Shown here: positions 3,701 through 33,700 of the stretch, in pieces | Position numbering within the stretch: the stretch's first letter is position 1 | How the letters are laid out: each line of letters opens with the position of its first letter | NCBI GenBank assembly: GCA_021292105.1 | Contig: CM037867.1 | Span: forward strand, 43,539,843-43,603,842 | DNA: 64,000 nt | Source: Anadara kagoshimensis | Taxonomy: Eukaryota; Mollusca; Bivalvia; Arcoida; Arcidae | Reading direction: 5' to 3' | Made by a program: the position numbers and the translations under genes | The notes under the pieces: model-generated | Database searches by the model: none | What the model saw: the letters and a program-made list of their open reading frames with translations, nothing else | Told to the model about the DNA's origin: nothing

Positions 3701-6700
3701 ACATGGGAAAAGTAATACCTTGCTCAAGTAAAACAAAATCTAAACATGGGAAAAGTAATACCTTGCTCAAATAAAACAAAATCTAAACATGGGAAAAGTA
3801 ATACCTTGCTCAAGTAAAACATAATCTAAACATGGGAAAAGTAATACCTTGCTCAAGTTAAACAAAATCTAAAATATAATATAAATTATACTTCTATACT
3901 TCTGACCTTATCCTGGAAGAAGACACAGCCTGTTTTCTGAGCACAGCCAAGATGGAAAATTTTAGAACATCTGACATTGAAACAGCTTAAGGTGGCTCCA
4001 ACACATTTACACACCACACATTCCAGTGTTGTACTTCTGGTAAAGGCCACATCTACATTCATTAAGTCTCCGTTTAATGTCTCATACACTTCTGATGACC
4101 ACAAGGCACAATTTAAATGAGCCCATTTATCTACATCCATATTTAGCAATCTGTAAGTAAAAATGGGGCATTATAAGTCTATAGCTGGACATTTTATAAC
4201 TTAAAATGATTCAGACAAGGGTTTGGACTAAATAATGACATCCAGTCAAAGAGTTGAAAGAATACTGATCTGTTGTATAATAATAATAACTTTTATTGGA
4301 AAACTGAAATATACAGTGTCATCCATTACATGATATAAAACATAGAAATCAAATATATAAACATAACAGTACATATAATTGTGACAATCACTCTCCGCAA
4401 TTTAATGAATTACAAATATTTCTGATTAAGGAAATACCTGATGTCGGTCCATCAGTGCAATACTGGATTAGCTAGTGAAAAATTATCCTTCATTTGTATG
4501 TGTTAAATACATGTAAAATGTTTTCATATACATACACTCATATACATGTGTATATACATATATACCGGTACCTATCCATATTTCTATATAAAGTAAAATT
4601 AAAATTATATTATTATATTACTAGTATGATATATTCATTACATCTTAGAACCTGTGTCATGTGTTATCTTTGAATTTAGCACATTTTTGAATGCATTATT
4701 TCATAAAAATTCAAAAATAGCACATGACACCTATATTATATTGCATCTGATGAACCGAGTCTTTTTAATTAAGTTACTGTTATATGACAATTTTTAACTT
4801 ACTAAGTATATATATTTCAGCCCTGTGTCTTTCCCTCTCTAATATCTAATGCTAGCTTTAAGTATTTTTGTAAAGCTAAACATTCTTTCAAATTATTTGG
4901 ATTTAAAACCCTTTTAATAAACTCTAAAGGAATTTTTTACCAAAGAATTTTCTAAAATATTATATGAGGTAAATAAGTTTACTCGAAGTGAGCTATATAT
5001 AGGGCATTTTAAAATAAAGTGAATTTCGTCTTCAACTTCTTGACAGTTTTTGCAGATTCTTTCATCACGTGGTGTTTTTGGTTTTGTATATCTTCCTCTC
5101 TCTATGGCAAGTGAATGTGAACTTATTCTAAAAGCTGCAATGCTTGATCTGATGTTTTTTGAGATTGGAAGTGACACATAATATGGAATATTTTCATTAT
5201 GTAAGTTGCTAAATAATTCAAGTTTACTTTCAATTTTCCCAGTTTTAATTTTATTCAAAAATGTTTTAGTATTGGATGTTATATAATTTGATAAAGATGT
5301 TTTAAAATCCTCAGTTGAAATCCGACCTTCACTTGCCTTTTGAGAATCTAATTTAATTTGTTTAAATATATTATAAAGTGTTGAAAACCAACTCTTAGAT
5401 TTTTCTTCAAATAAATTTTGATCAGTAATAAATGCACTATATAAAAGTCTGTTATTATTAAGCTGGATTAATCTAGTGAAATATTTATACATCAATGTTA
5501 AAGCAGAAATGATGACTGGTTGAGATCCACATTCAAGTCTACATGCTAGGTTAGTTGATTGTCTTTTAACTCCAAGAATACATTTTAACATTTTGTGTTG
5601 TAATTTCTCAATAGGGAGAGTATCTGTTCTATTTAGGTTAATGTTTATATCACTTAACCAGATTTCACATCCATATAAAATAATTGGTTTTATTAAAGAA
5701 TCAAACATCTTAGTACAAGTATTCAAAGGGACATTTTCAAAGTTTGAGAACTTGTTTCTTAAGGAGAAAAAAGATTTTATTCCCTTATTGTACAAGTCAT
5801 TTACTGCATGTGTCAACCTTCCATTGGAAGAAAACACAATGCCCAAATATTTATATTTTTCAACTACATCAATCATTGAATTATTAAATTGAAAATTATA
5901 TTGATTAAGGTCTGTTTTTCTCACACTAAAAATCATTATTTTTGTTTTCCGAATATTTATATTCAATTTCCATGTTTCACAATAGTTTGATAATTTATCC
6001 AAACAATTTTGTAATCCTGATTCACTGTATTGTAGATTATGATTAAATGTATATGACAACTACTTACATTAATATCAACTGGTGATGGAAAACAATCTTA
6101 GTGTCCAAGAATGTCAATGGAAAAATCAAAGGAAGTTTTACACATCAGGCTGCACAATAAAATAGCAATTTTATCAAACTACATAAAAATGGTTTTAAGT
6201 TTTACAGAAAACTATTGCAGAATGAAACATTTTAAAGATGATTTTACACCAAAAAAGAAAATTATAAATGTATTATGGCCTTGTTTACCAAAGCTCTACA
6301 TCTGACTAAACATTTACCTTGCTGGTCCATTTGTAATACCATCTCCCTTCTTCGTACAGAATGTACAGACACGTTTATCCTCTGGCATTGGGTCAGGTAT
6401 AATAATAGTCCCTAATGCTTTCCAGAGCTGTAAAAAAAATATAACAATTAATATTAGATTGTATTTAATGTAACACTGATCTTCTACCTTAAGATAAAGA
6501 TAGTTCCCAAAGTCTACATGAGATGTAACATAGTTAAGTCGCAGTATTCTGCCTATCCTACTAAACAGCTCTAGTAGTCTCCCTTATGTATCTACATGTA
6601 ACATAGTTAAGTCGCAGTATTCTGCCTATCCTACTAAACAGCTCTAGTAGTCTCCCTTATGTATCTACATGTAACATAGTTAAGTCGCAGTATTCTACCT

Positions 6701-9700: not shown

Positions 9701-12700
9701 ATATGTTAAATGCACCACTATCAACTTTCTATATTTAAAATATTCAATGAACAAAATCATTAAAAATTTTATGAACAAATACTACTTTTGCAACTTTACT
9801 ATTTATAGTAATGGCAGTCATCTTGGAAATTCTATCATACCTCATTTGCCTATTTCATGAAAACTGGGTTAATGAAAAAAAATTCTTGTGAAACCCTGTT
9901 ACATATATTAATTGTCCTGCTTTCTACATTTCAAATTTGAACATAATCGGTTGAAATTGTTTGCACAATGGCTACTTTTGTATTTTTACTATTTACAGTA
10001 ACTGTGGCCATCTTAGAAGTCCTATCTAGTTCACAAATGTACATAACACATCATCTTGTGGTGACACAACCATTTGCCAAATATGGTATGCTTATGTCAA
10101 AGAACAAAGAAGTTATGGCCCAGATAGGAATCTGCACAGGCAGACAGAGTGATTTGTATACCCCCCCCCTTGAACAAATGGTGGCGGTGGTTAGGGTGGT
10201 ATAATTAACATACATTATGAGCAGATGGCCAGCCTCTCTGGAGAGAAACAATATTATGCTCTCATATCACAGTCTAAGATAGTTTTACAGTAGTGGTTTC
10301 CTAAATTTGATACCTCAGTCATTATATGCTATGTCATCCAGTTTAATTTTAATGCACTATATAAATCCATTATTACAGATGGACAAATACTGTTATACTA
10401 TGCTGTATACTGTATTGATATCTAGTAGATTGTTACCATATATAGCTGACCTACCACTTCAATTTCAGTTTCTGGAGTTTCTGGTATTATTCCGATATCA
10501 TCACTAAAATCTGGAGTCCAAGTTTTATATCTTTTATCCTTCCATTTCTTTATCAATGGCTGTAAAAGGAATAAACAATGTACATCAAAATCATTGTTAT
10601 TGTAGAATGTCATGGTGAGGTTAACAAGTTTGTCAAAGAAAAAGATAAATGTCAAAACCTTTATATATCTAAACTTAATGTTTACCATGTCTAAAATTAA
10701 GTTATACCATAACTTTTACCATGTCTAAAATTAAGTTATACCTTAACTTTTACCATGTCTAAACTTAACCTATACCATAACTTTTACCTTTTCTTTTATG
10801 TGTCAACTTTAAATGTCAATTGTTTTATGTGTCAACTTTACATGTCTTTTGTTCTATATGTCAACTTTAAATGTCAATTGTTTTATGTGTCAACTTTACA
10901 TGTCTTTTGTTTTATGTGTCAACTTTACATGTCTTTTTGTTTTATGTGTCAACATTACATGTCTTTTGTTTTATGTGTCAACTTTAAATGTCTTTTGTTT
11001 TATGTGTCAACTTTACATGTCTTTTGTTTTATGTGTCAACTTTACATGTCTTTTGTTTTATGTGTCAACATTACATGTCTTTTGTTTTATGTGTCAACTT
11101 TACATGTCTTTTGTTTAATGTGTCAACTTTACATGTCTATTGTTCTATATGTCAACTTTAAATGTCTTTTGTTTTATGTGTCAACTTTACATGTCTTTCG
11201 TTCTATATGTCAACTTTACATGTCTTTTGTTTTATGTGTCAACTTTACATGTCTTTTGTTCTATGTGTCAACTTTACATGTCTTTTGTTCTATATGTCAA
11301 CTTTACATGTCTTTTGTTTTATGTGTCAACATTACATGTCTTTTGTTCTATGTGTCAACTTTACATGTCTTTTGTTTTATGTGTCAACTTTACATGTCTT
11401 TTGTTCTATATGTCAACTTTACATGTCTTTTGTTTTATGTGTCAACATTACATGTCTTTTGTTCTATGTGTCAACTTTACATGTCTTTTGTTTTATGTGT
11501 CAACTTTACATGTCTTTTGTTTTATGTGTCAACTTTACATGTCTTTTGTTTTATGTGTCAACTTTACATGTCTTTTTGTTTTATGTATCAAAGGTCTATA
11601 CATGTATCATACATCAACCACTGAATTATCTTAATCTCTTCAATCATCTAACATACCCTTGGAGGAAAATCTGAACCAAAACCACCAGGTCTACGATGCT
11701 TTAAAGCTTTTCTTTCATCTAATTTCTGACGTAAAGGAGAGGTTACTGGTCTAGCTACTGGTGCTGTTGGAGTTGAGGGCGCTGATGGTGTATGAGACTC
11801 AGCTGTGGCAGGTGTAGATGGACCACTGTGTGGACTTAATATCTCAGATGGAGTTGTGGAGGTAGACATTGCTAGGTTAGGTTTAACTTCCAAGGTAGGT
11901 AACTCTTCCACTGGTTTAGAGGGAGGGTTTACAGCTTCGTATATCATTGCAAATTGCATAAAACATTTTTGACTACAGAAAAACGTTTCTTCATCTTCAA
12001 TTTCCTGTAAATACAATTTATGTAAATTATCATCTGCAAACAAGTATCAAATGACAAAATCACAATCTCTCTCAGTATCTCTAATTTTATAGAAAAGACC
12101 CAACAGTGCCTGTACTGCTCAGTAGCCTAGCTGTTTCAGAACAGAAAACATTCAAACTATCAGCTTGAAATAACACCTCACTTCCACGAAAACTGAGTCA
12201 ATGATTTTTTTTCTGAAAATCTTGTTACATATGTTTCGTTCCTATATATCTACTGTATGTTTATCAAATTTGAACTAAATCTACATATAAATAAACCTGT
12301 AATGGCTATTTATCCAATTTTAATAAATTTATATAACAGTGGCCATCTTGAATTTCGGACATAATAGACACAATTTTTAATCTGCACTAACATAATTTCT
12401 TCCTAACCAAATCGTGTTGTATTCACTCAAGCAGTTTTAGAGAAGGTTTTTGAGGAACTGGCTAAGAGCGAAAAATTTGTCTGAAAAATCTGTTGCATAT
12501 GGTAAATGGCATTTAGTTATATACTATATATATTATATATATTTACACTTAATCAGTCCATAAATATTTCTTTATGGCTATATATCTGTTATTGTCTATT
12601 TGTCTATTTACAATAATGCTGGCCATCTCAGATTTTGGATGACCATGTCAGACAAAAATTTTAATGAACATCAATCAAGGAACTTACTAACTGGTTTAAG

Positions 12701-12754: not shown

Positions 12755-15700
12755 AGAGAAAATAACTGAACTTTAGCAAGCAAACTGCTAAACTTCCTGA
12801 AATATGTTTTGACTGAGGTGATTTGAAAGGGACTGTAAAGTACTGTGATCCATAGGAACAGGCTGTAGACCACAGAGTTTACCAACAAAGGTAGATTCTA
12901 TTAAGTCTTGATCTAGTAGAGATATAGTATCATCAGATCACAGAGCCTTAACCATTCTGCTACACTTCTGTACAAGATACTTAACCATTCTGCTACACAT
13001 CTGTACAAGATACGTACTTTAAAAGCAAACTGGTCTTCCTTGATTAAGAATGGCATTTCAGATTTCTTCTTTCTAACACCAGAATCTAGTATAACTACCT
13101 CACAATAACGACAAAACTTAGGCTTGGCTTGTATCAGAGAATGTATATTAACTGCTTCTTCTTTATCTGTTAATTAACAAACAATAATGTCAACATCACA
13201 AAGTTAGGAAAACCTTACTACACCCACACCCATTGATTTTACAGAAATACATTGGGATCTGTAAAAACTGGACATAAAGTAAACCCAAAACCAGCCCATA
13301 CTCAATTCATTTTTCATTATAGTTTGTTGAATAAACTGTGTAAACAGAAAACTTTTCTAATCTGAACAAAATATTTAGTCTAGGTGTTCTCAATTTAGAC
13401 AAGTTGCTTTTAAACCTAAATCAAGTAGATTTTACTAATAACTTTTGACTCAGCAAGTCAGATACTCAAACAATAAGATATGTTTTTGTGATTTCTCAGT
13501 AATTTACTTATTATCTTAAACATTTTATTTAAAAATATAAATTGTTGTAAAGCATTTAATAATTTGAGACCAAGTATATCTTTTTCTCCTGTTGCCATGG
13601 TGATACTGTCAATTCTTATTTCATGCAAATAGAATCTCTATATGATCTAAACTCACGTTTGGTACTTGTTTTCAATATTTCTGGTGAGGGACTCCTGCTA
13701 ACTTCATATGTTGGAGGGACAGCTATTTTCAAAAGTTCTGCTATTTGTGATAGAACACCACCGATATCATCTGCTGCACTAGCTGACAATGTCAAGGTCA
13801 CAGAGATGTCCTGATTCTGATTGCTGTCTCTAAAAGGTTGTGCTAGACTTGATGATAAACTCTGCATATGTTTAGATAAATTTTCCTTCTCTTGTAACAG
13901 ACTTGCTGGATCAGATGGTTTTCTCTCTGGTATATCTAAATCTCTTCCATAAGGTTTGTTTTCTTTTTGTTTCATCTCAGATTTTACAGCAGACATCCTC
14001 ACAGGGACAGGTTCTATCAAAGGCACTGATGGAGAACATCGGTCTTCTTCAGACTGTGCTGGTTCTATTGGGCGTAATAATGGGAAATCATCTTTTTCTG
14101 TATAACCAAACTCATGTTCTGGGGATGATGATGAAATAATGGAGCTTGGACTCTCCACTCTGCAATGAAAACCCAAAAAATTAATGGCAACTAAAGCTCT
14201 AAAGGAGACTAATAATCCCCTCAGACCCGCCATCAGTGGACCCACCATCTGTGATCAACAAATTCCATAAATACAAGCCATCATTTTTCAGGGCAATAAC
14301 TCTTATATTAATCAACTAGTTTTAAATATTGAAATGTGCTGATAACAAAAACAAATATTGGAAAAGCTTATAGGCAACAACTGGCTTGATATTCAGCATG
14401 AAATTAAGAAGCTGTTTGATTACAACACCACAGGTACCAAATATCAAATCAGATTTGCCTATGGGTTTTGCTTTTTAAGAAAAAAGTTTTTTTTTTTTTT
14501 TTTTTTTTTAAATTTTATGATCAAAGGGCAACAACAGTATTCAGCACCTGTGACCCTGAACTTTGAACCCATAACCTTCATCTAAATATCAAATGACCAT
14601 TACATTAATACCAAGATATTCTAATATACATTCAGATACAATCAATTTTTAATTTTCAAGATAACTAAATAATTCTGAATTCTTATACCCCTGTAATCTG
14701 GATCTTTGAACCCATGACCTCTATTTGTTTGCTAAAATGATTGTTATATCTTCTAATATACACTTGCTTATATAAAATTATAGTTTCTCAGATAATTAAC
14801 CATTTTAGGATTTTAGGCATCTGTGACCTTTGAACCCATGACCTTCATCTGATTAAATTTAATTTTATTACTATCAGCTATATGCATAAGATTCAGGTTC
14901 AGGATCTGACCTGTATTGAGATTCAGGCTTTGGTTCAGGATCTGACCTGTATTGAGATTCAGGCTTTGGTTCAGGATCTTACCTGTATTGAGATTCAGGC
15001 TTTGGTTCAGGGTCTTACCTGTATTGAGATTCATGGTTCAGGATATTACCTGTATTGAGATTCAAGCTTTGGTTCAGGATCTTACCAGTATTAAGATTCA
15101 GGCTTTGGTTCAGGATCTGACCTGTACTGAGATTCAGGCTTTGGTTCAGGATCTTACCTGTATTGAGATTCAGGCTTTGGTTCAGGATCTTACCTGTATT
15201 GAGGTTCAGGCTTTGGTTCAGGATCTGACCTGTTTTGAGATTCAGGATCTTACCTGTATTGAGATTCAGGCTTTGGTTCAGGATCTTACCTGTACTGAGA
15301 TTCATGGTTCAGGATATTACCTGTATTGAGATTCAAGCTTTGGTTCAGGATATTACCAGTATTGAGATTCAGGCTTTGGTTCAGGATCTGACCTGTACTG
15401 AGATTCAGGCTTTGGTTCAGGATCTTACCTGTATTGAGATTCAGGCTTTGGTTCAGGATCTTACCTGTACTAAGATTCAGGCTTTGGTCAGGATCTGACC
15501 TGTATTGAGATTCAGGCTTTAGTTCAGGATCTTACCTGTACTAAGATTCAGGCCTTGGTTCAGGATCTTATCTGCATTGAGATTCAGGCTTTGGTTCAGG
15601 ATCTTACCTGTATTGAGATTCAGGCTTTGGTTCAGGATCTTACCTGTATTGAGATTCAAGCTTTGGTTCAGGATCTTACCTGTATTGAGATTCAGGCTTT

Positions 15701-18700
15701 AGTTCAGGATCTTACCTGTATTGAGATTCAGGCTTTGGTTCAGGATCTTACCAGTATTGAGATTCAGGCTTTGGTTCAGGATCTTACCTGTATTGAGATT
15801 CAGGCTTTGGTTCAGGATCTTACCTGCATTGAAATTCAAGCTTTGGTTCAGGATCTTACCTGTATTGAGATTCAGGATTTGGTTCAGGATCTTACCTGTA
15901 CTAAGATTCAGGCTTTGGTTCAGGATCTTACCTGTATTGAGATTCAGGCTTTGGTTCAGGATCTGACCTGTATTGAGATTCAGGCCTTGGTTCAGGATCT
16001 TATCTGCATTGAGATTCAGGCTTTGGTTCAGGATCTTACCTGTATTGAGATTCAAGCTTTGGTTCAGGATCTTACCTGTATTGAGATTCAAGCTTTGGTT
16101 CAGGATCTTACCTGTATTGAGGTTCAGGCTTTGGTTCAGGATCTGACCTGTATTGAGATTCAGGCTTTGGTTCAGGATCTTACCTGTATTGAGATTCAGG
16201 CTTTGGTTCAGGATCTTACCTGTATTGAGATTCAGGCTTTGGTTCAGGATCTTACCTGTATTGAGATTCAGGCCTTGGTTCAGGATCTTATCTGCATTGA
16301 GATTCAGGCTTTGGTTCAGGATCTTACCTGTATTGAGATTCAGGCTTTGGTTCAGGATCTGACCTGTATTGAGATTCAGGCCTTGGTTCAGGATCTTATC
16401 TGCATTGAGATTCAGGCTTTGGTTCAGGATCTTACCTGTATTGAGATTCAAGCTTTGGTTCAGGATCTTACCTGTATTGAGATTCAAGCTTTGGTTCAGG
16501 ATCTTACCTGTATTGAGGTTCAGGCTTTGGTTCAGGATCTGACCTGTATTGAGATTCAGGCTTTGGTTCAGGATCTTACCTGTATTGAGATTCAGGCTTT
16601 GGTTCAGGATCTTACCTGCATTGAGATTCAAGCTTTGGTTCAGGATCTTACCTGTATTGAGATTCAAGCTTTGGTTCAGGATCTTACCTGTATTGAGATT
16701 CAGGCTTTGGTTCAATTCTAGGGTATGGAGGTAGTAAATCCTCTACAGACATACGACTACTTTGAGTAATGTGTGTGGTCTTTCCTGATGAGGACTGTTG
16801 TGTTAACTTGGATACCATTGTAGGAAGCCCATACTGGTTTGGGTTCAGGTGATATCTGTGAGGTTCTGTACCTTATAAAGAAATAAATTTAGTTGAATAT
16901 ATAATTTTGTTCCCTTCTTTATATGCTTGACATTGTCATACTTATCTTCACAAATTAAGTTGCATGATCACTATAGTACTATATCTTGAATGAAATGCCA
17001 GTCTACTACATAATTAGCCCCAAAATTTATGTTATTACCCATTCATTACAAAGCTTGGAGAAAAGACGTGAAATAAAATATCTTAATTGATGATATCAGG
17101 TAACCAGACAAGACCTTAAACCATACAACATAAACACTGACAATATACACATTTTTATCTTGTACAAAATCTAGTACCTATGCGGTAATTCTATAAATCA
17201 TTTATCCAGACACAAACACCTTTAATTGTGACATACTCACTACTCATCCCAGGGCACTTCACATACTACTGCTGTGATAATCAAAAGTAAAATATAATCA
17301 TGACTAAGATGTAACAACAACAACAACAACCCCCAACTCTCTAACATAAACAACCCCCAACTCTCTAACAACAACAACCCCCAACTCTCTCATTCTGCTA
17401 TTACTTTACTGGGATACTTACCTAGGTTATGATTGACTAAGATGTAACAACAACAACCCCCAACTCTCTCATTCTGCTGTTACTTTACTGGGATACTTAC
17501 CTAGGTTATGATCGACTAAGATGTAACAACAACAACCCCCAACTCTCTCATTCTGCTATTACTTTACTGGGATACTTACCTAGGTTATGATCGACTAAGA
17601 TGTAACAACAACAACCCCCAACTCTCTCATTCTGCTATTACTTTACTGGGATACTTACCTAGGTTATGATTAACTAAGATGTAACAACAACAACCCCCAA
17701 CTCTCTCATTCTGTTATTACTTTACTGGGATACTTACCTAGGTTATGATCGACTAAGATGTAACAACAACAACAACAACCCCCAACTCTCTCATTCTGCT
17801 ATTACTTTACTGGGATACTTACCTAGGTTATGATCGACTAAGGTGTAACAACAACAACCCCAACTCTCTAACACCAACAACCCCCAACTCTCTAACAACA
17901 ACAACCCCCAACTCTCTCATTCTGCTATTACTTTACTGGGATACTTACCTAGGTTATGATTGACTAAGATGTAACAACAACAACCCCCAACTCTCTCATT
18001 CTGCTATTACTTTACTGGGATACTTACCTAGGTTATGATCGACTAAGATGTAACAACAACAACCCCCAACTCTCTCATTCTGCTATTACTTTACTGGGAT
18101 ACTTACCTAGGTTATGATCGACTAAGATGTAACAACAACAACCCCCAACTCTCTCATTCTGCTATTACTTTACTGGGATACTTACCTAGGTTATGATCGA
18201 CTAAGATGTAACAACAACAACCCCCAACTCTCTCATTCTGCTATTACTTTACTGGGATACTTACCTAGGTTATGATCCTTCTGGCCATCACTTAAATATT
18301 TCCTCCTTATTTCTACATCCCGTTGTGATCCAATAAGTGATTCTAAGGGAGGCAACCCCAAGAAAATTGTACTGGTATAAAAATCTGCCACACCATCCAG
18401 AAAACACCTACCAAATCCACCCTTTAATTGGGGATCATCTGAAATATCATTACACAAATATTAAACCTTTATCATACATAAAGAAGCTTACAGCTTACAG
18501 TTGTATACAATAACTGTCCCCTATCTTTTACAAGCTCACAGTGACAGGTGAAACATGACTATTTTGTTTTTATAATATTGCAATGTACAACTCAACGTCT
18601 ACCAAGTTTAATCAAAACTCCTTCAGTAGTTTAGGTGATGATAGGGATACAAACTTTAAATGTATCAAATTCAATATGGCTGTCAGCAGCTATATTGGAA

Positions 18701-21700: not shown

Positions 21701-24700
21701 CTGTAATATATTCTGTATAACCTACCAGAAATCACAGCAGAACTCCCAGGAACACTGCCAACGGGTAAATCAGTTCCTATACGAGGTTCCTGCAGTGGTA
21801 CCATTGGCATATTACGTAGATGTTGGAGAAATCCTTCTGTTTTGTTGTCCTTGTCTTCTTCTTCTGTTAATTTCTTCAAACCTTTGGGTTTCCGTTGACG
21901 TTTCTTGACAACTTTTTCCTGATAAGGCCCTTGGCTAGATATCTGGACCTGATTTTGTACATGTGTCAGCAGATTGGGTTCCTGTAATATTGGATGAGGG
22001 GATTCAGGAAAATCCTGTAAAGGTAGTCCCAAACAATCTTCTCCATCTAAAGTTTTCAATTTTTTCTTTCGTTTTTTTGGTTCCCCTGTGGCACTGAGCT
22101 TTCTTTTTACTTTCATTTTTCTCATTTCTTCAAATTCTTTCCTTCGTTGTTCATATGCCTGTCTTCTTATTTCTATTAAAAAAAACAAAAAACACCAGGA
22201 TTTTATAAACATATTTTTCTTTTTGTCACTTTTATGGTTATTGTACACTGCATGTCTCCTTATCAAGATCTACCAAGCAATGAAGTTTCACACTGTACCT
22301 GTACAGTTTTTGCGTTATGCTCTGGACAAAATTTTAAGTATGAAAAAGAACAAAGAACAATCACCCCTTAATTATGGAAAATAAAGTTATGGTTCTTGTA
22401 CACTGCACTTTTACTTATTAAGATCTACCTAGCAATAAAGTTTCACAATGATATTTCTTACAGTTTTTAAGAACGAACGAACAGACGGAACGGACAGGTG
22501 GATAGTGGCAACTATATACCATCCCTTCAGGAGGAAAACAAAAATAAACTTGTCATACATGCTTATCTCCCTTTGAATCACTTTGTTCAATTCTCAGATA
22601 TAACCCAAATGTAACATTAAAATTATAATCAAAATGTTCGTGAGGCTATCAAGGTATGTAAAGAAATATTTACCTAAAATTCTTTCTTTTTCTTCCTGTG
22701 ACTTACTTTGCCAGTCCTCAGCAGAAATCTCCGATTCCTGGAGTAATGGCATACTCTCTATAAGTTCTAGTTGTCGTTGTTGTTCTGGTGTTAGATGTAT
22801 AGGTGATGATTCTTCAGGGTCCTACATTAATATCATAAAATTGTAATAAGTAGTGACAACATCAAAAACTTAATAATGGTTAGCCTTCATACATACATTA
22901 AATCCCCACTCCCCACCTGTCAGACCAATATACTCTATACAAGGATGTGTATACATCAGGATTATCCCCCTACCCACCTGTCAGACCACTATATGTGTAA
23001 TACATCAGGATTATCCCCCTCCCCACCTGTCAGACCACTATACTCTATACAAGGATGTGTAATACATCAGGATTATCCCCCTACCCACCTGTCAGACCAC
23101 TATACTCTATACAGGGATGTGTATACATCAGGATTATCCCCTCCCCACCTGTCAGACCACTATACTCTATACAAGGATGTGTATACATCAGGATTATCCC
23201 CCTACCCACCTGTCGGACCATTATACTCTATACAAGGATGTGTATACATCAGGATTATCCCCCACCCCACCTGTCAGACCATTATACTCTATACACGGAT
23301 GTGTATACATCAGGATTATCCCCCTACCCACCTGTCGGACCATTATACTCTATACAAGGATGTGTATACATCAGGATTATCCCCCACCCCACCTGTCAGA
23401 CCATTATACTCTATACACGGATGTGTATACATCTGTATACATCAGGATTATCCCCCTACCCACCTGTCAGACCATTATACTCTATACAAGGATGTGTATA
23501 CATCAGGATTATCCCCTCCCCACCTGTCAGACCATTATACTCTATACAAGGATGTGTATACATCAGGATTATCCCCCTACCCACCTGTCAGACCACTATA
23601 ATCTATACAAGAATGTGTATACATCAGGATTATCACCCTACCCACCTGTCAGACCATTATACTCTATACAAGAATGTGTATACATCAGGATTATCACCCT
23701 ACCCACCTGTCAGACCATTATACTCTATACAAGGATGTGTATACATCAGGATTATCCCCCTACCCACCTGTCAGACCACTATACTCTATACAAGGATGTG
23801 TATACATCAGGATTATCCCCCTCCCCATCTGTCAGACCACTATACTCTATACAGGGATGTGTACACATCAGGATTATCCCCCTCCTCACCTGTCAGACCA
23901 CTATACTCTATACAAGGATGTGTATACATCAGGATTATCCCCCTACCCACCTGTCAGACCATTATACTCTATACAAGGATGTGTATACATCAGGATTATC
24001 CCCCTCCCCACCTGTCAGACCACTATACTCTATACAGGGATGTGTACACATCAGGATTATCCCCTTCTCACCTGTCAGACCACTATACTCTATACAAGGA
24101 TGTGTATACATCAGGATTATCCCCCCTACCCACCTGTCAGACCACTATATGTGTAATACATCAGGATTACCCCCTCCCCACCTGTCAGACAACTATAATT
24201 TATACAAGGATGTGTATACATCAGGATTATCCCCTACCCACCTGTCAGACCACTATACTCGATACAAATATGTGTAATTCATCAGGATTATCCCCCTACC
24301 CACCTGTCAGACCACTATACTCTATACAAGGATGTAAATACATCAAGATTATCCCCTCCCCACCTATCAGACCACTATACTCTATACAAGGATGTGTAGT
24401 ACATCAGGATTATCCCCTCCCCACCTGTCAGACCACTATACTCTATACAAGGATGTGTATAAAGCAGGATTATCCCCTCCCCACCTGTCAGACCACTATA
24501 CTCTATACAAGGATGTGTAGTACATCAGGATTTTGTTAACTAAAATGGTGTTTTTTCACACCATGTATAATTCAGTCATATTCTGAATGAACAGTTGCTT
24601 TTTGTAAAATTTCATAATGATTAAAGAAGAGCGTGATTTTGAATACTTCTGCTGATAGCCTGATTGTACCTCTGAGCTAACTGTCATCTGGGCCAGCTGT

Positions 24701-27700
24701 TTTTGTTTCTGGAGGGCCGAGCTTGTTGCTAGGAGTTGTTTTAACAAAGCATTCTGACTAGGTGTTCTCTGATCTTCATCTGCAGGCAATTCATTTCCAC
24801 CTTATAAAAACAAGACACAAAGGTTACTTTTTACACATTTTTCAAATATTTTTTTTACATTTGTATTTGCATCACTTTGGAAATATTATTAAAAATCAGT
24901 AAAAAAGTTCCTCAAATGTTTGATGGACTACAACCACAGCTAAATGTTAACCAAATTACTTACCATCTCTGGGTTTATTGAATATTTTCATCTAGTCAGT
25001 CACTATGAAATGATCAACATACCCAAGTACATTGAAATAACTAATTATAATTATATATATCTTTCAATCACACTTCTGGGTCTGGCTTAGACATGAAAAA
25101 CTAGTCCAAGCACATGGCATTAAGAAATGAAAGTCACAGGGTCCTTTAGAAGAGACCTCAAAAACTGATATCCTGTGTCACATGGCACATTGCTCAGAGT
25201 ATACTGCAGTGCCATGCTCAAAGCATACTGCATAGATAAAAATTCCTGCCAATTCACTTATAGCTGGTGGCATCTCAATATAAGTGAAATATGCTTGAAT
25301 GGGATGTAAAACAAATTCAATCAATTAAACAATCAATCTTTCAGGCAATTAAAAATAATAATGCTGAAATGCCCTTTCAATAGCCTTCAACCAGAAACAG
25401 TTAATGCCAACTGACTGAGGGAATGTGTGCCATACTTACACAGACAAACATACAGACTGACACCTTTCAATACACCTTACAAAAACTTTTCACTTCAATA
25501 AGATCTGTGAGGATAACTTACATGAGTCTCTGGGATAATCAACTGGTTCCTGTTTCAACTGCAACATATGCTGTGACCCTGTGCTAGAACCTGTAGAACT
25601 TGGTCGGTTCATCTGTTGTGAACCTGCAGAACTTGGTCTTCCAGCAGAATGTTGAGAGCCACTAGATGGTGGGCGTGCTAGCTGTGCTTCCCCTGAAATA
25701 GGCTGTTGTTCTCCTAACATAGGGTGTTCCATTTTACTAACTGCCGACACAGGACTATGGACGGTTGTCATTGGAGATGACCTTGGAATGGTTACCCCTA
25801 CATGCATGGAACTTTGTCCACTGGTAGTTTTTACAACTGAACTCATTAAAGATGTCATTGGGACAGTTGTGTTACATGTAGATAAATCATCACTGACTGG
25901 GGGGTGATGTAATGGTGGTGGCTGCATATGTCTGTGTATAGGTCCTGGCATGTGTTGTTCTGCAGACATGTCTCCAGGGTACCTCAATGGACCCCCTACT
26001 GGCATCATGGGCATACCAGATTGAGACATCTGGAACTGAGGTGGAATGCCCCCAGGAAAATGTGGATGTCTCATCCTGATTGGGAACATTGCTGGTGGAG
26101 GCTGTTCTATTGGTAGAGCTGATGGTGTACTTTGTGTTACATCGGTTTCAGTGGCAGCTTTCTTGGAGCCCTTTGCTCTTGGGCCTCTTGGTCTTGGACC
26201 AGCTTGAGATGGCATCTGCATCTCTGCCATGGACATATGTGGAGGCATTCTCTGAAGCTGTGGCATATTAAATGGTGGCATGCCAGGTGGTAGTCTCATT
26301 CTGTAGTGGGGTGGGACCTGCATTCCAGGTGGCATATTTGGCATAGCCATTGTGTGAGCAGGATATGGTGGTCTTTGTCCCATCATCATCATTGGAGGTT
26401 GTTTACCACCAAGACCCATCATATGATGTTGCATAAATGCTGGGTGTCCTGGCATCATTCCAGGACCACCTGGTTGGTCCATTCTAGGCATCATTGATGG
26501 TGGCAGTGCTGGCATAGTCATTGCAGTTGGTTCTTGCTTTACATGACCTCCCTCTTGTTGTATTGAAGCAGCAGGTGATGTTCTCTGCGCTGATCCTGGA
26601 GATGATTTGGTGACAGAGGCTGGAGATGACCTTGGAATTGATGCTGGTGATGACCTTGGCAATGATGCTGGTGATGACCTTGGTGTCAGAGTTCCTTGAT
26701 GCGTTTCCATGTACACACTGGCTACAGCTGAACCTTCAGCAGTACCAGTGCTTGAAGTTCCAATTCCAATTTGACTTCTGACCAATTCTTGATTATTTGA
26801 ATCATGTGTTGCTGAAGCAGTAGATGTTGTCATAGTAACAGCTTGACACTGATTCCCTGTTGTTGTTGATATGGCATTTAGCTCAGTTTTGATGACTGTA
26901 TCTATTGGTTTAGACTTTCCCTCTTGTTTAATTTCACCATGTGTAGTACTCATCGGAGATGAACCCTTATCTTCCTCTTTAATCTGCTGATTTGTTGTGG
27001 TTACAACTGAAGTATTGGATAATGATGGTATCAACTGTTGGTCAAGTTGGCTTACTGACACCTGACCAACTGTTGTCTGATGTTCACTTTGTGGAAATTG
27101 TTGTGTTTGAAGAGCAGGAACCTGTTGTGTATTAGGTACTATACCTTGCCCACTATGGAGAGCTGTCACTGGAACTTGTCCCGTCTGGTGAGCTGACATC
27201 TGAACTTGCCCTGACTGGTGAGCCGACACTGGAACTTGCCCTGTCTGTTGAGCCAACACTGAAACTTGCCCTGTCTGGTGAGCCGACACTGGAACTTGCC
27301 CTGTCTGGTGAGCTGACACTGGAACTTGCCCTGACTGGTGAGCTGACACTGGAACTTGCCCTGACTGGTGAGCTGACACTAAAAATGACCCCGACTGGTG
27401 AGCTGACACTGGAACTGACCCTGACTGGTGACCTGACACTGGAACTTGCCCCGACTGGTGAGCTGACACTGGAACTGACCCTGACTGGTGAGCTGACACT
27501 GGGACCTGCTGAGTCTGATGGGCAGATTCTGGAACATGTTGTGGAAGATGGGCAGTAGCTGGGACATGTTGTGCCTGCTGAGCAGATGTTGGAACTTGCT
27601 GTGGTTGAGGTGAATGTTGTACCTGGTGGGTAGAAACTGGAATTTGTGGGGCCTGGTGGACAGATACTAGAACCTGTTCTGAACTAGATGTTACTGAATT

Positions 27701-30700
27701 GGTAACTGGAACTGAAGAAGGATTATCTTGCATTTGTTGTGCAGTTCTTTGTTGATTAGAACCTTGATAAGCACTAACTGGCACTTGATGTGTACTGGCT
27801 GGTATCTGCTGAGAGTTGTGTATTGTAGCTGAGGTAGGATGTGAATGTGCAGGTATATGATGATGAGCACTAGAGACAATCTGATGTAATCCTGGATCAT
27901 GCCTCTGGTGAGCACTTGGTATCTGATGTGCTTTAACAGGTCCCATCTGATGAGCAGTTAAAGTTGTTTGGTGGGCACTTGTTGGAAGCAGGTGAGCACT
28001 TGGGGCTTGATGAGCACTTGGAGGACCCTGATGTGCACTCACTACTTGATGAACTGATGACATTGGTTTATGTCCACTAAATGAAATTTGGTTCATCCCA
28101 AACACGGCTTGATTTGTCACATTTACTGCCTGGTGAGCATTAGTCGATCCATGAGCTCTTGGTATTTGGTGAGAACTTGTCATATTGTGTATTCCCGGAA
28201 GATGCTGATAGTTTGGTATCTTTGGTTGTCCTTGGTGAGCACTGACAGGAATATGAGCTCCTGTTGGTGAATTATTAGTAGGATCTCTATGAAATGCTGG
28301 ATGATTTTTACCTTCAGATGCAGCATGCTGAGACCTTATATCAGTATGTATTCTGGAATGTCCTCTAAGCTGATTTCCATCTAAATTTGAATTTGACATC
28401 ATTCTGGAAACATTTTGAAGCTGCTGCAATGCAACATAATTCTCTGGCATAAATCCTGGTCTTTGACCTGGAAATGGTACACCATAGGGACCTCCTCTTG
28501 GCATCATGGACTGGCCTTCCATTGAAGGAAAACCAAAATGACCCAATGATTTTACTCTTTCTGCCATCATTGCTTGATATTGTGACATTAGGTTTTCGTT
28601 TTCACTAGCAGAGGTAGTAGAAGGTAAACTAATGGTTACGGATGATTGACTGGTGGCTGCAGGTTGTTGACTGCTGGAAACTAATGGTTCACTTGTAGTC
28701 ACAGATTGTTGACAAGTGATAGCTGGTTGACTTGTCACAACTGTTTGTTGAGTCGTTGCAATTGATGGTTGACTAGTAAAGGTGGCTGGTTGGCTGATGG
28801 CTGTTGATAGTGTTGATGACAGTTGACTAGCATGTGCAGATGGTTGACTTATATTAGATGATGGTTGAGTGTTGGCATTAGATGGTTGACTGGTGACACT
28901 TGATGGTTGAGTGGTGACATTAGATGGTTGACTGATGTCACTTGATGGTTGAGTGTTGGCATTAGATGGTTGACTGATGGCACTTGATGGTTGAGTGTTG
29001 GCATTAGGTGGTTGACTGATGTCACTTGATGGTTGAGTGTTGGCATTAGATGGTTGAGTGTTGGCATTAGATGACTGACTGATGGCACTTGATGGTTGAG
29101 TGTTGGCATTAGATGGTTGACTGGGGGCACTTGATGGTTGAGTGTTGACACTTGATGGTGGAATGATGGCACTTGATGGTTGATTGTTGGCATTAGGTGG
29201 TTGACTGATGTCACTTGATGGTTGAGTGTTGGCATTAGATGGTTGAGTGTTGGCATTAGATGGTTGACTGGTGATACTTGATGGTTGAGTGTTGGCATTA
29301 GATGGTTGACTGGTGACACTTGATGGTTGAGTGTTGACACTTGATGGTGGAATGATGGCAGTGGATAATTGACTGGCACCTGTGACTGGTTGACTAGAAT
29401 CAGTAGATAGCATTGTAGTAACTGGTTTTGATAAAGTTTGTTCTGATGAAGTAACATTTTCTACAGCCGGTATACTTTTGTCCGGTTCTGTAATTTTTGT
29501 GTTCTCAGATTCTCCATCTTTTTCCAGAATAGAAGTAACTACATTCCCTGAAGAACTTCCAGGTGTATTTAGATCTGACACATTCTGGTTTTCTTTTGCA
29601 TGTTGGTGACCAGATACATTCACAATGTCCTTTTCTTTTTTAAATTTGTTTTGAATACACTGACCATCAATTGCAAGAGCCACAGTATTCTGATCATTCT
29701 TGCTTTCATCCCCTATATTTGAGGTATTGCTTTCTTTTGTTTGAGATTCACTTGTAGGTGGTGGTTGGTCTTCATTAGATGTTGACTGTGAAGATGTTTC
29801 AGAGGTTTGTCTGTCTGAATTCCCTGACTGAGAAACTGGTGGGGGTGTTCCACAATTCCTTCCATCATTGCATCCAACCTGAGATGCTGGTGGTGGTGTT
29901 CCACAGTTCCTTCCATCATTGCATCCACCCTGAGATGCTGGTGGTGGTGTTCCACAGTTCCTTCCATCATTACATCCACCCTGAGATGGTGGTGGTGTTC
30001 CACAGTTCCTTCCATCATTACATTCACCCTGGGATGGTGGTGGTGTTCCACAGTTTTTTCCATCAATACAACCAACCTGAGATGGTGGTGATATTCCATA
30101 GTTCCTTTCATCATTACATCCACCCTGAGATGGTGGTGGTGTTCCACAGTTCCTTCCGTCATTACATTCACCCTGGGATGGCGGTGGTGTTCCACAGTTC
30201 CTTCCATCATTGCATCCAACCTGAGATGCTGGTGGTGTTCCACAGTTCCTTCCATCATTACATCCACCCTGAGATGGTGGTGGTGTTCCACAGTTCCTTC
30301 CGTCATTACATTCACCCTGGGATGGCGGTGGTGTTCCACAGTTCCTTCCATCATTACATCCACCCTGAGATGGTGTTGGTGTTCCACAGTTCCTTCCATC
30401 ATTGCATCCACCTGAGATGCTGGTGGTGGTGTTCCACAGTTCCTTTCATCATTGCATCCACCCCGAGATGCTGTGGTGGTGTTCCACAGTTCCTTCCATC
30501 ATTACATCCACCCCGAGATGCTGGTGGTGGTGTTCACAGTTCCTTCCATCATTACATCCACCCTTAGATGTTGATGGTGATGTTCCACAGTTCCTTTCAT
30601 CATTACATCCACCTTGAGATGCTGGTGGTGGTGTCCACAGTTCCTTCCATCAATACACTCACTCCGAGATGCTGGTGGTGGTGTTCCACAGTTCCTTCCA

Positions 30701-33700
30701 TCATTACATCCACCTTGAGATACTGGTGGTGGTGTTCCACAGTTCCTTCCATCATTACATCCACCTTGAGATGCTGGTGGTGGTGTTCCACAGTTCCTTC
30801 CATCATTACACCCACCCTGAGATGCTGGTGGTGGTGTTCCACAGTTCCTTCCATCATTACACACACCTTGAGATGCTGGTGGTGGTGTTCCACAGTTCCT
30901 TCCATCATTACATCCACCCTGAGATGCTGGTGGTGGTGTTCCACAGTTCCTTCCATCATTACATCCACCTTGAGATGCTGGTGGTGGTGTTCCACAGTTC
31001 CTTCCATCATTACATCCACCCTGAGATGGTGGTGGTGTTTCCACAGTTCCTTCCATCATTGCACCCACCCTTAGATGGTGGTGGTGTTCCACAGTGCATT
31101 CCATTTGAACATGTTGGTGGTGGCGGTGTTCCACAGTGCATTCCATCTGTACATTCTGATGTAGGTGGTGGTGTTCCACAGTGCATTCCATCTGTACATT
31201 CAGATGTAGGTGGTGGTGTTCCACAGTGCATTCCATCTGTACATTCTGATGTAGGTGGTGGTGTTCCACAGTGCATTCCATCTGTACATTCTGATGTAGG
31301 TGGTGGTGTTCCACAGTGCATTCCATCTGTACATTCTGATGTAGGTGGTGGTGTTCCACAGTGCATTCCATCTGTACATTCTGATGTAGGTGGTGGTGTT
31401 CCACAGTGCATTCCATCTGTACATTCTGATGTAGGTGGTGGTGTTCCACAGTGGATTCCATCTGTACATTCAGATGTAGGTGGTGGTGTTCCACAGTGGA
31501 TTCCATCTGACATTCTGATGTAGGTGGTGGTGTTCCACAGTGCATTCCATCTGTACATTCAATGAGGTGGTGGTGTTCCACAGTGCATTCCATCTGTACA
31601 TTCTGATGTAGGTGGTGGTGTTCCACAGTGGATTCCATCTGTACATTCAGATGTGTGGTGGTGTTCCACAGTGCATTCCATCTGTACATTCTGATGTAGG
31701 TGGTGGTGTTCCACAGTGGATTCCATCTGAACATTCTGATGTAGGTGGTGGTGTTCCACAGTGGATTCCATCTGTACATTCTGATGTAGGTGGTGGTGTT
31801 CCACAGTGGATTCCATCTGTGCATTCTGATGTAGGTGGTGGCGTTCCACAGTGCATTCCATCTGAACATTCTGATGTAGTTGCAAATGTAGATTGATGTT
31901 CCCTTTGTGGCTTTGTTTTCTGTTGTTCAGAATTTAGAGATAATTCTTTGGCTTGGAGTGTACTTGTTGTGGTACTTGTCATTACTGCAGTTTCAACAGA
32001 AACAACTGGTGATGGGGTTGATGATGGCGGCATTGACTGCCTTGGTGAAGATCCTGCACTAGAGTGTGGAGATCTGGCCATTTGTCCTAATTCTGACATT
32101 GACTTCTGCATCATTTGTTGATGTGATAAAACTTCTACTGATGGGCCTACATGATAAGGGGACCTTTGTCCTGGCTGTGTATGCATCATGTGGAAAGGAG
32201 GTCGTTGATGCATGGAAAAATTTGGTCCTTGGGAATATGGTGCAGAACCTGGACTTGACATCATTGGTATTGTTCCTCTTGGTGAATGTGGCCTTGGTGA
32301 AATATCATGAAAACTCCTTGGAGATTGTGGCCTTGGTGACATTTCATGCATTCCCCTAGGTGATCCAGCATGATGTTGTATGTCATGAACTGCTCTAGGA
32401 GATCCAGCACGATGCTGTATTTCATGGAAACCTCTAGGGGATCCTACCCTGGGTTGCATCTGGTAAGGTACAGCACTTCTTGGAGAGCCTGCTCTTTGTG
32501 GTGAGCTACCCATTCCAGCCTGAAGTGACTGTACTGGTGATTTTCTTTGACTTCTGTTTCCTTGTGGCATGTTCATTGGCACACCATACCTAGCATGCTG
32601 TTGTGCCAATAGTCCTGGTGAGACTGGATGTGGTGAAAATCCCTGAGGTCTGCTGGTGCCTTGTACTGTGGAATGTGCTGAAGAAACCTGAGAATTTGGA
32701 TCTACTGGATATACTGGTGCTGTACTAGCAGGCTGGGATAAAGAAGGTCTCTGGATAATACTCTGCTGTTGTATCATTACATTCATTGGCATTATAGGTT
32801 CTGTGTCTGTCTGTGTGTCATCTATCTCCATGGAATCAGCTGTTAACTTTGTTGTATTTGTAGGAATGGTTTCTGATGATTGAATTTCCTGTGATGGTGC
32901 CAGGGGTAAGCCACTATGACTAGGTGTCCCCCGGGGTGATGTAGTTTGACTACCAGGCTGCACTAATCCTGTTCCATGGGAGGGTGTACTCGTACTTTCT
33001 GCATCTTTGCTCGTATCTGATGCTGCCCCACTGGATGTTACAGAATCACTGCGACTAGCTTCTTCTGGACTTTGTTCTTTATCCTGTTTTTCAGTGCCAC
33101 CTTTGGAATTCTGGTTCTTCTGTAACTCAGCTGTACTGTTAAGTATTTCCATTATTCTTTTCTCTGTTTCTGACTGTGGTGTAAATTGTATTGGTGGTTT
33201 TGTCTCTGGACCTGTCGTGGTTTGTCCCCCTGGACAGTAGATGTTCCCTGAACTGGTGTACCAGAACCTGTAATACAGTAAATTAAATAATAAAAATATG
33301 ATCAGAGCACAGTCATGTCCTATGTATGTGTAAATTATTTTGTCTTATCATATCCCATAACAAATAACTGTTCTTTGTAATGACATGTTCTAGTGAACAG
33401 TTAATAACCAATCAGACATCACTTTACTTTATTAACATGTTCTATTGAACAGTCAGTAACCAATCAGACATCACTTTACTTTAATGACAAGTTCTACTAA
33501 ACAATCAGTAACCAATCAGACATCACTTTACTATGAGATTTCAAAACTTGAAAAATCTGACACACAAGTCTAAAAGGTTTAAAAGAAAAGTTTGTCTTAT
33601 CAACAGATGCATTAACAGGCAATGGTGACAATTTATTAAATTTTATTTTGCAAATATTAGTCTAAATTATTAACAAAATCTTTGGATTTATACAATGGAC

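Follow-up and report, generated by a model that had tools for sequence, protein, structure and literature searches.

Minisatellites at exon–intron borders

Minisatellites that span exon–intron borders, known as mirages, have been described in lancelets at Adh3, at the globin genes BflGb6 and BflGb9, and at the genes for troponin C and PGBD5, with units of 10-72 bp in Adh3 and 150-160 bp in the globins; many of them hold AG/GT signals and reportedly do not interfere with regular splicing, somatic instability is cited for the Adh3 mirage, and BflGb6 has haplotypes of differing length (PMC3087553, PMC3902484). In the present work, we analyzed a stretch of 64,000 nucleotides from the bivalve Anadara kagoshimensis (GenBank GCA_021292105.1, contig CM037867.1, positions 43,539,843 to 43,603,842; hereafter the window), in which a 36-bp minisatellite (array B) takes in the end of an exon (exon B) of a gene that, by its minus-strand open reading frames and protein matches, is the KMT2C/D (MLL3/4) orthologue of a bivalve. 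Like the amphioxus mirages, the bivalve arrays reported here span the exon–intron border, include the splice signal, and recur at several genes of one genome. They differ in copy number, reaching ~51 and 69 copies compared to 6 and 3 units in the BflGb6 haplotypes, and whereas amphioxus mirages occur on both the donor and the acceptor side, our survey covered donor-side arrays.

Other described systems share single traits with this locus. The internal tandem repeats of human segmental duplications are likewise minisatellites, of ~30 bp, some of which lie at exon–intron borders and affect gene structure, but they average ~4 copies and are linked to new introns and alternative transcripts (PMC2812944). 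In contrast, the intron holding array B is apparently ancestral and ends in an acceptor beyond the array. The repeats with dual-specific splice sites in UBC and VCX3A also have units that hold AG|GT; their introns span a whole number of units and have both splice sites within the repeat, whereas array B holds the donor only (PMC10809524). An intron of the UBC type was rejected for our locus, as the acceptor of the next exon (exon C, which starts at 14159) lies ~740 nt beyond the end of array B. Intron gain by AGGT duplication similarly involves the tandem duplication of a segment with AG|GT (PMC2891723). A new intron formed in this way was rejected as well, given that exon C apparently starts at the same codon in all three relatives' frames examined. 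No mollusc mirage was found among the titles listed from the open-licence literature searched; the array belongs to a kind known from lancelets and is apparently the first mollusc case within the searchable literature.

Experiments on how the spliceosome chooses between identical donors usually rely on a small number of engineered copies. The loci described here offer a natural test of how one splice site is chosen among dozens of identical ones, in several conserved genes and with a reading-frame read-out. They extend lancelet mirages to a mollusc and supply several sites at which a preferential start of minisatellites at exon ends can be examined. Regarding annotation, gene finders could misplace exon ends in such genomes.

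The array at the end of exon B

The features of the locus are given below; donor scores throughout come from a weight matrix and from pairing to the 5′ end of U1.

14896..16714, minus strand: array B, 36-bp minisatellite of ~51 copies, unit composed of the last 27 nt of exon B and the first 9 nt of its intron (Tandem Repeats Finder, TRF)
16688..16871, minus strand: exon B, 184 nt, acceptor TTTATAAG|, donor CAG|GTAAGA (gene model and orthologue alignment)
16682..16690, minus strand: presumed true 5′ splice site CAG|GTAAGA, with 16688 as the final exon base and 11.0 bits in the weight matrix
13657..14159, minus strand: exon C, the next exon, joined to exon B in phase 2 (...PKPESQY R VESPSSI...); relatives' frames begin at the same place

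According to TRF, array B has a period of 36, 51.2 copies, and 91% matches, in agreement with the ~50 copies of a 36-bp unit given in the preliminary description of this DNA. The minus strand reads ...CCCTAGAAT|TGAACCAAAGCCTGAATCTCAATACAG|GTAAGATCC, followed by TGAACC...CAG|GTAAGATCC over and over, and the last 27 nt of exon B (16688-16714) constitute copy 0 of the array. The earlier identification of the unit as an exon end plus its donor is thus borne out; the unit itself is the one proposed, while its division shifts from 26 exon-derived and 10 intron-derived nucleotides to 27 and 9. Exon B occupies one place in the genome, and a genome search with a 301-bp piece of array B returned eight matches, all inside the array.

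When array B was cut into segments, 46 of the 53 were 36 nt long, with one 12-nt piece corresponding to half of a split unit and the last segment (22 nt) to the array end. Counting the exon's own copy, CAG|GTAAG was intact in 32 of the 53 segments, so that the decoys are mostly intact, consistent with the nearly identical ones described earlier, and 13 were identical to the exon copy over the full 36 nt. The 53 GT sites in the array comprised 32 CAG|GTAAGA, 10 CAG|GTCAGA, 2 CTG|GTAAGA, 2 CAG|GTAATA, 1 CTG|GTAATA, and 6 non-donor-like GTACAG, the most frequent donor changes being GTAAG to GTCAG and CAGGT to CAGAT. On the minus strand of the window, 35 sites scored at least as high as the exon B donor, and 32 of them lie inside array B. 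In the frame of exon B, the first codon past AGG is TAA, ending at intron position +4, in line with the previous claim that exon B has a single productive donor, the first.

The KMT2C/D gene and the junction of exons B and C

The closest named proteins among the 64 listed came from Mizuhopecten, Pinctada (a hypothetical protein), Mytilus, and Saccostrea, with 47-49% identity, and these closest matches were mostly annotated as KMT2C, KMT2D, or MLL. The gene model comprises 13 exons; its acceptor at 12033 was out of frame, and the one at 11998 was used instead. A tblastn search with six orthologues gave a match, in some cases weak, in 11 of the 13 modelled exons and none to exon B or to the exon at 25692-25522. 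In the joined model of exons B and C, the phase is kept and the protein aligns with the orthologues, the junction LLPPYPRIEPKPESQY-R-VESPSSIISSSSPEHEFG being aligned, for example, with LPPPPRIEPRLDLVSRGSDSPETVISSSSPEHGFG of Mizuhopecten. The junction residue is R in seven of the eight closest rows and in five of the six named bivalves, Saccostrea having K; the count covers the eight closest rows, the remaining seven in the alignment being more distant or having gaps at the junction. Shared with other bivalves are also the PRIEP motif just upstream, a similar length from it to the junction, and the mostly R codon at the junction.

Reading frames of relatives place the start of exon C at the same spot: among 11 non-own proteins, all three frames examined begin with [YF]R, and the window's own exon C frame starts with CR, after the acceptor TGCAG|A. 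We read [YF]R in the relatives as an acceptor YAG|R at this spot and, from the reading frames alone, the intron position as old; since exon C starts at the same spot in relatives, the B–C junction would be older than array B. Protein searches found no own-species transcript, the only 100% match being the window's own exon C frame. The comparison with orthologues, which share the B–C junction, did not yield the refuting result foreseen in the preliminary description, an exon end that bears no relation to the unit.

A second array in the same gene

The exon preceding exon B carries an array of its own.

18265..18438, minus strand: exon A, directly preceding exon B, with TAG|GTAAGT as donor (gene model; tblastn matches from all six orthologues)
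17366..18277, minus strand: second array (array A), 79-bp unit composed of the last 13 nt of exon A and 66 nt of its intron (TRF and unit comparison)

Exon A ends in ...GATCATAACCTAG|GTAAGTATCC, and the 79-bp units begin with the same 13 exon nucleotides; at both exon A and exon B, the unit start corresponds to the exon end to the nucleotide. Array A holds 11 intact TAG|GTAAGT, the true donor included, and reading through from exon A into the array gives GKYPSKVIAE followed by a stop. Among the 13 modelled donors, that of exon B is the second strongest and that of exon A the third, and by pairing to the U1 end these are the two best. Of the 13 intronic arrays listed in the window, two begin with a copy that contains a donor of the gene, and no array ends in a copy with an acceptor. 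With uniform placement and 13 modelled donors, 0.19 donor-straddling arrays were expected compared to the 2 observed, and 1.5% of 200000 random placements reached 2, in a test that was made after the case was seen and that left out coding and small arrays.

Recurrence at other genes

Donor-bearing arrays were also sought throughout the window's assembly (1.115 Gb, 36 contigs). The sample comprised 22 of the 23 distinct arrays among the matches listed, taken from the start of the genome (from C1 onward) and not by random draw; the array left out, C1:42446003, is a twin of L067. Six of the 22 lie on exons with a family match, six on stretches that look exon-like by eye, and nine have no visible exon, while the edge of the remaining one (C2:17.0 Mb) lies beyond the fetched stretch. 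The preliminary description of an exon-end array is confirmed, and its scope was too narrow, for the same structure occurs at the preceding exon and at six other exons with a family match.

These six exons encode parts of diverse proteins. The one with the most copies belongs to a GTPase, which we take to be NOA1-like (Pfam MMR_HSR1, 2.4e-8, with the query joined to the next exon); 69 identical donors are present there, and the next exon of the gene, TTLSLLKFPI, is found downstream of the array. The others belong to a ZIP transporter (family match of 3.4e-9), to 7B2 (1e-11), to RGS7 (PDB match of 3.5e-10), to a monocarboxylate transporter (MCT; 1.8e-4 to MCT8, with a downstream exon matching MFS_1 at 4.9e-7, below Pfam's cut-off), and to a cyclic-nucleotide-binding protein, presumably PNPLA6-like (3.1e-11). 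The next RGS7 exon was not found by motif in the 9.3 kb downstream. Arrays after natural exons hold 4 to 69 copies of the exon's own donor, the true one included. A separate stepwise count of array units stops early and hence undercounts.

For the exon-like stretches (L042, L043, L049, L050, L068, and L069), family searches gave no convincing match; L050, presumably SFI1-like, gave only a sub-threshold transposase zinc finger, and the exon of L049 shares just 5 nt with the array unit. In L040, L041, L044, L045, L046, L053, L055, L066, and L067, no exon was visible by eye in a three-frame translation of ~250 nt upstream, and no family search was made; L040 and L041 share a repeat family, and so do L044 and L045. 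The array whose edge lies beyond the fetched stretch (G000:C2:17005600-17018000, minus strand) has a 65-bp unit and covers more than 10 kb, with 95 MAGGTRAG in one stretch and 70 AAGGTAAGTTAA in the adjacent one.

The reading frame was followed from the exon to the next donor in nine cases, which include the SFI1-like exon without a family match. Use of that donor would bring in a stop ahead of it in five cases and shift the frame in three, eight of the nine in total. The RGS7-like mirage (L054, C2:3.81 Mb) has a 75-bp unit that is open over several copies, and later donors there could insert 25 residues per copy into the protein; open units of a length divisible by three, such as the one at RGS7, might give rise to protein repeats.

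Probable origin and tolerance of the arrays

We consider array B, with a probability of roughly 0.85, to be a mirage minisatellite, i.e., a tandem expansion begun across the exon–intron border whose copies carry the exon end and the 5′ splice site, with the exon-proximal donor used and the extra copies tolerated. This reading draws on what the sequence shows: the anatomy of the array, a junction conserved in orthologues, an array of the same kind at exon A, and similar arrays at other genes. One segment spanning the exon end would have been duplicated by slippage or unequal exchange. As the exon-proximal copy would retain the whole exon and a strong donor, added copies would fall into the intron, be removed with it, and be hardly seen by selection, so that the array could grow like any intronic minisatellite. 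The spliceosome would commit to the exon-proximal donor, which is transcribed first and adjoins the exon body; later donors would be of little consequence, their rare use leading to a stop codon and decay. The preliminary description had left the choice between a very strong first-site preference and frequent products of nonsense-mediated decay; the former is more likely in our analysis because lancelet mirages are reported not to disturb splicing (PMC3087553, PMC3902484).

Several points weigh against this interpretation. Use of the first donor is deduced from the reading frame and homology. The exon end KPESQY is not conserved among the orthologues. Across the 46 full units, donor columns showed 2.1 changes per column compared to 1.2 in the other columns, the direction expected from decoy decay, with an excess that was not significant (circular-shift fraction of 0.17). 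Furthermore, when donors compete, some test systems favor the intron-proximal one, so that difficulties would be expected at this locus. Depletion of decoys close to exon B was ruled out, as the counts of intact copies in successive thirds of the array were 12, 11, and 8 (each of 17). With decoys near the exon not depleted and donor columns at least as variable as the others, there is no visible selection for losing or for keeping decoys.

The same counts bear on a regulatory role, in which the array would act as a splice sponge: its dozens of donors would rival the true site, and the proportion of nonsense products would determine KMT2C/D output. The 31 decoys with a 9-nt donor identical to the true site, together with the TAA that follows at once in frame, would suit such a function. 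We nevertheless consider it very unlikely, given that 21 of the 53 segments lack CAG|GTAAG (two of them being the cut piece and the end piece), that the variability of the donor columns gives no sign of selection for decoys, and that the same anatomy occurs on unrelated genes (transporters, GTPase, RGS, 7B2).

Alternatively, the exon end could derive from the minisatellite, if an array in the intron expanded into the exon and overwrote its end. The exonic KPESQY, unlike that of the orthologues, would fit, and as 12 other segments of the 53 match the exon copy exactly, the exon and the array may have exchanged sequence. We consider this origin very unlikely when set against the upstream PRIEP, the similar length to the junction, and the mostly R codon that are common to other bivalves, and against an intron position that looks conserved. 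Moreover, the repeated exon parts of 7B2 (YCNPPNPCPKGYTG) and RGS7 (VKSFMSKVPSVFTG) match known families, so the exon came first there.

Least credible is a repair process in which a message keeping n copies would be re-spliced from donor 0 to the AG of the last copy, restoring the exact junction: an AG stands at the exon end in nine of nine cases, though seven of these were found by patterns demanding AGGT, and AGGT sites in human UBC tandem repeats serve as both donor and acceptor (PMC10809524), but the sequence before the unit AG makes a poor acceptor, with 6 to 10 of 16 pyrimidines in the nine cases compared to 9 to 14 of 16 at eleven of the 13 modelled gene acceptors.

Splice donors as possible starting points of minisatellites

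Donor motifs were also counted in tandem across the genome. Triplets of MAGGTRAG at a spacing of 24-54 numbered 5478, compared to 2183 for the reversed pattern; for MAGGTRAGT, 1930 triplets were found at a spacing of 55-85 (501 reversed, i.e., 3.9 times commoner) and 1869 at 86-116 (478 reversed), while single MAGGTRAGT sites numbered 38975 compared to 40781 reversed (ratio of 0.96). These are ratios of matches and not of events, as matches overlap within arrays and a small number of very large arrays carry much of the weight; arrays of short period are counted anew at longer spacings, and the 55-85 and 86-116 counts partly reflect the same arrays. The excess of tandem over single sites and the two donor-straddling arrays of the window (2 observed, 0.19 expected) lead to the tentative proposal that minisatellites of this genome arise or survive preferentially at strong 5′ splice sites, which would then be more than occasional victims. 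We regard this proposal as rather doubtful, because the ratios are of matches, not events. The match overlap, the few huge arrays, the double counting, and the tandem excess of an acceptor-like motif (1896 compared to 922 reversed, or 2.1 times, a figure without a single-copy control) weigh against it. A donor-seeding bias would be accounted for by a process linked to transcription or splicing at exon ends.

From the acceptor-motif excess, acceptor-side arrays may exist in the genome. In a 57-bp array at G000:C1:10039719-10040924 (minus strand), TTTTTGCAG is repeated along with 48 nt that look coding (SYLIKGKNAQCIRDIK); this array may be of the acceptor-side type or a repeat within coding sequence.

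Other repeats in the window

Further arrays in the window were considered as mirages and rejected. The 61-bp intronic array at 22993-24532 (minus strand) starts ~140 nt past a modelled exon end; it lies downstream of the weak modelled donor GAG|GTACAA, is not exon-end derived, and holds, on the gene strand, 24 donor-like sites that reach 6.8 bits or more, mostly CAG|GTGGGT or CAG|GTGGGG. The 43-bp and 29-bp arrays start 34 and 66 nt past exon ends, respectively, and the 50-bp array has CAG|GTAAAC on the plus strand only.

Coding repeats were found on the minus strand as well. The large KMT2C/D exon contains a coding minisatellite at 29828-31879, with a unit of ~15-17 residues (GGCNDGRNCGTPPPSQ type) and internal frame changes, which is matched by the scallop orthologue P0002. 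Coding tandem repeats at 27156-27573 and 28838-29375, of the VPVSAHQSGQ and SQPSNANTQPSS types, lie in the same open frame. Finally, an intronic open frame of 381 codons at 4917-6059 (minus strand) resembles by eye the reverse transcriptase of a non-long-terminal-repeat retrotransposon, of which it is a candidate.

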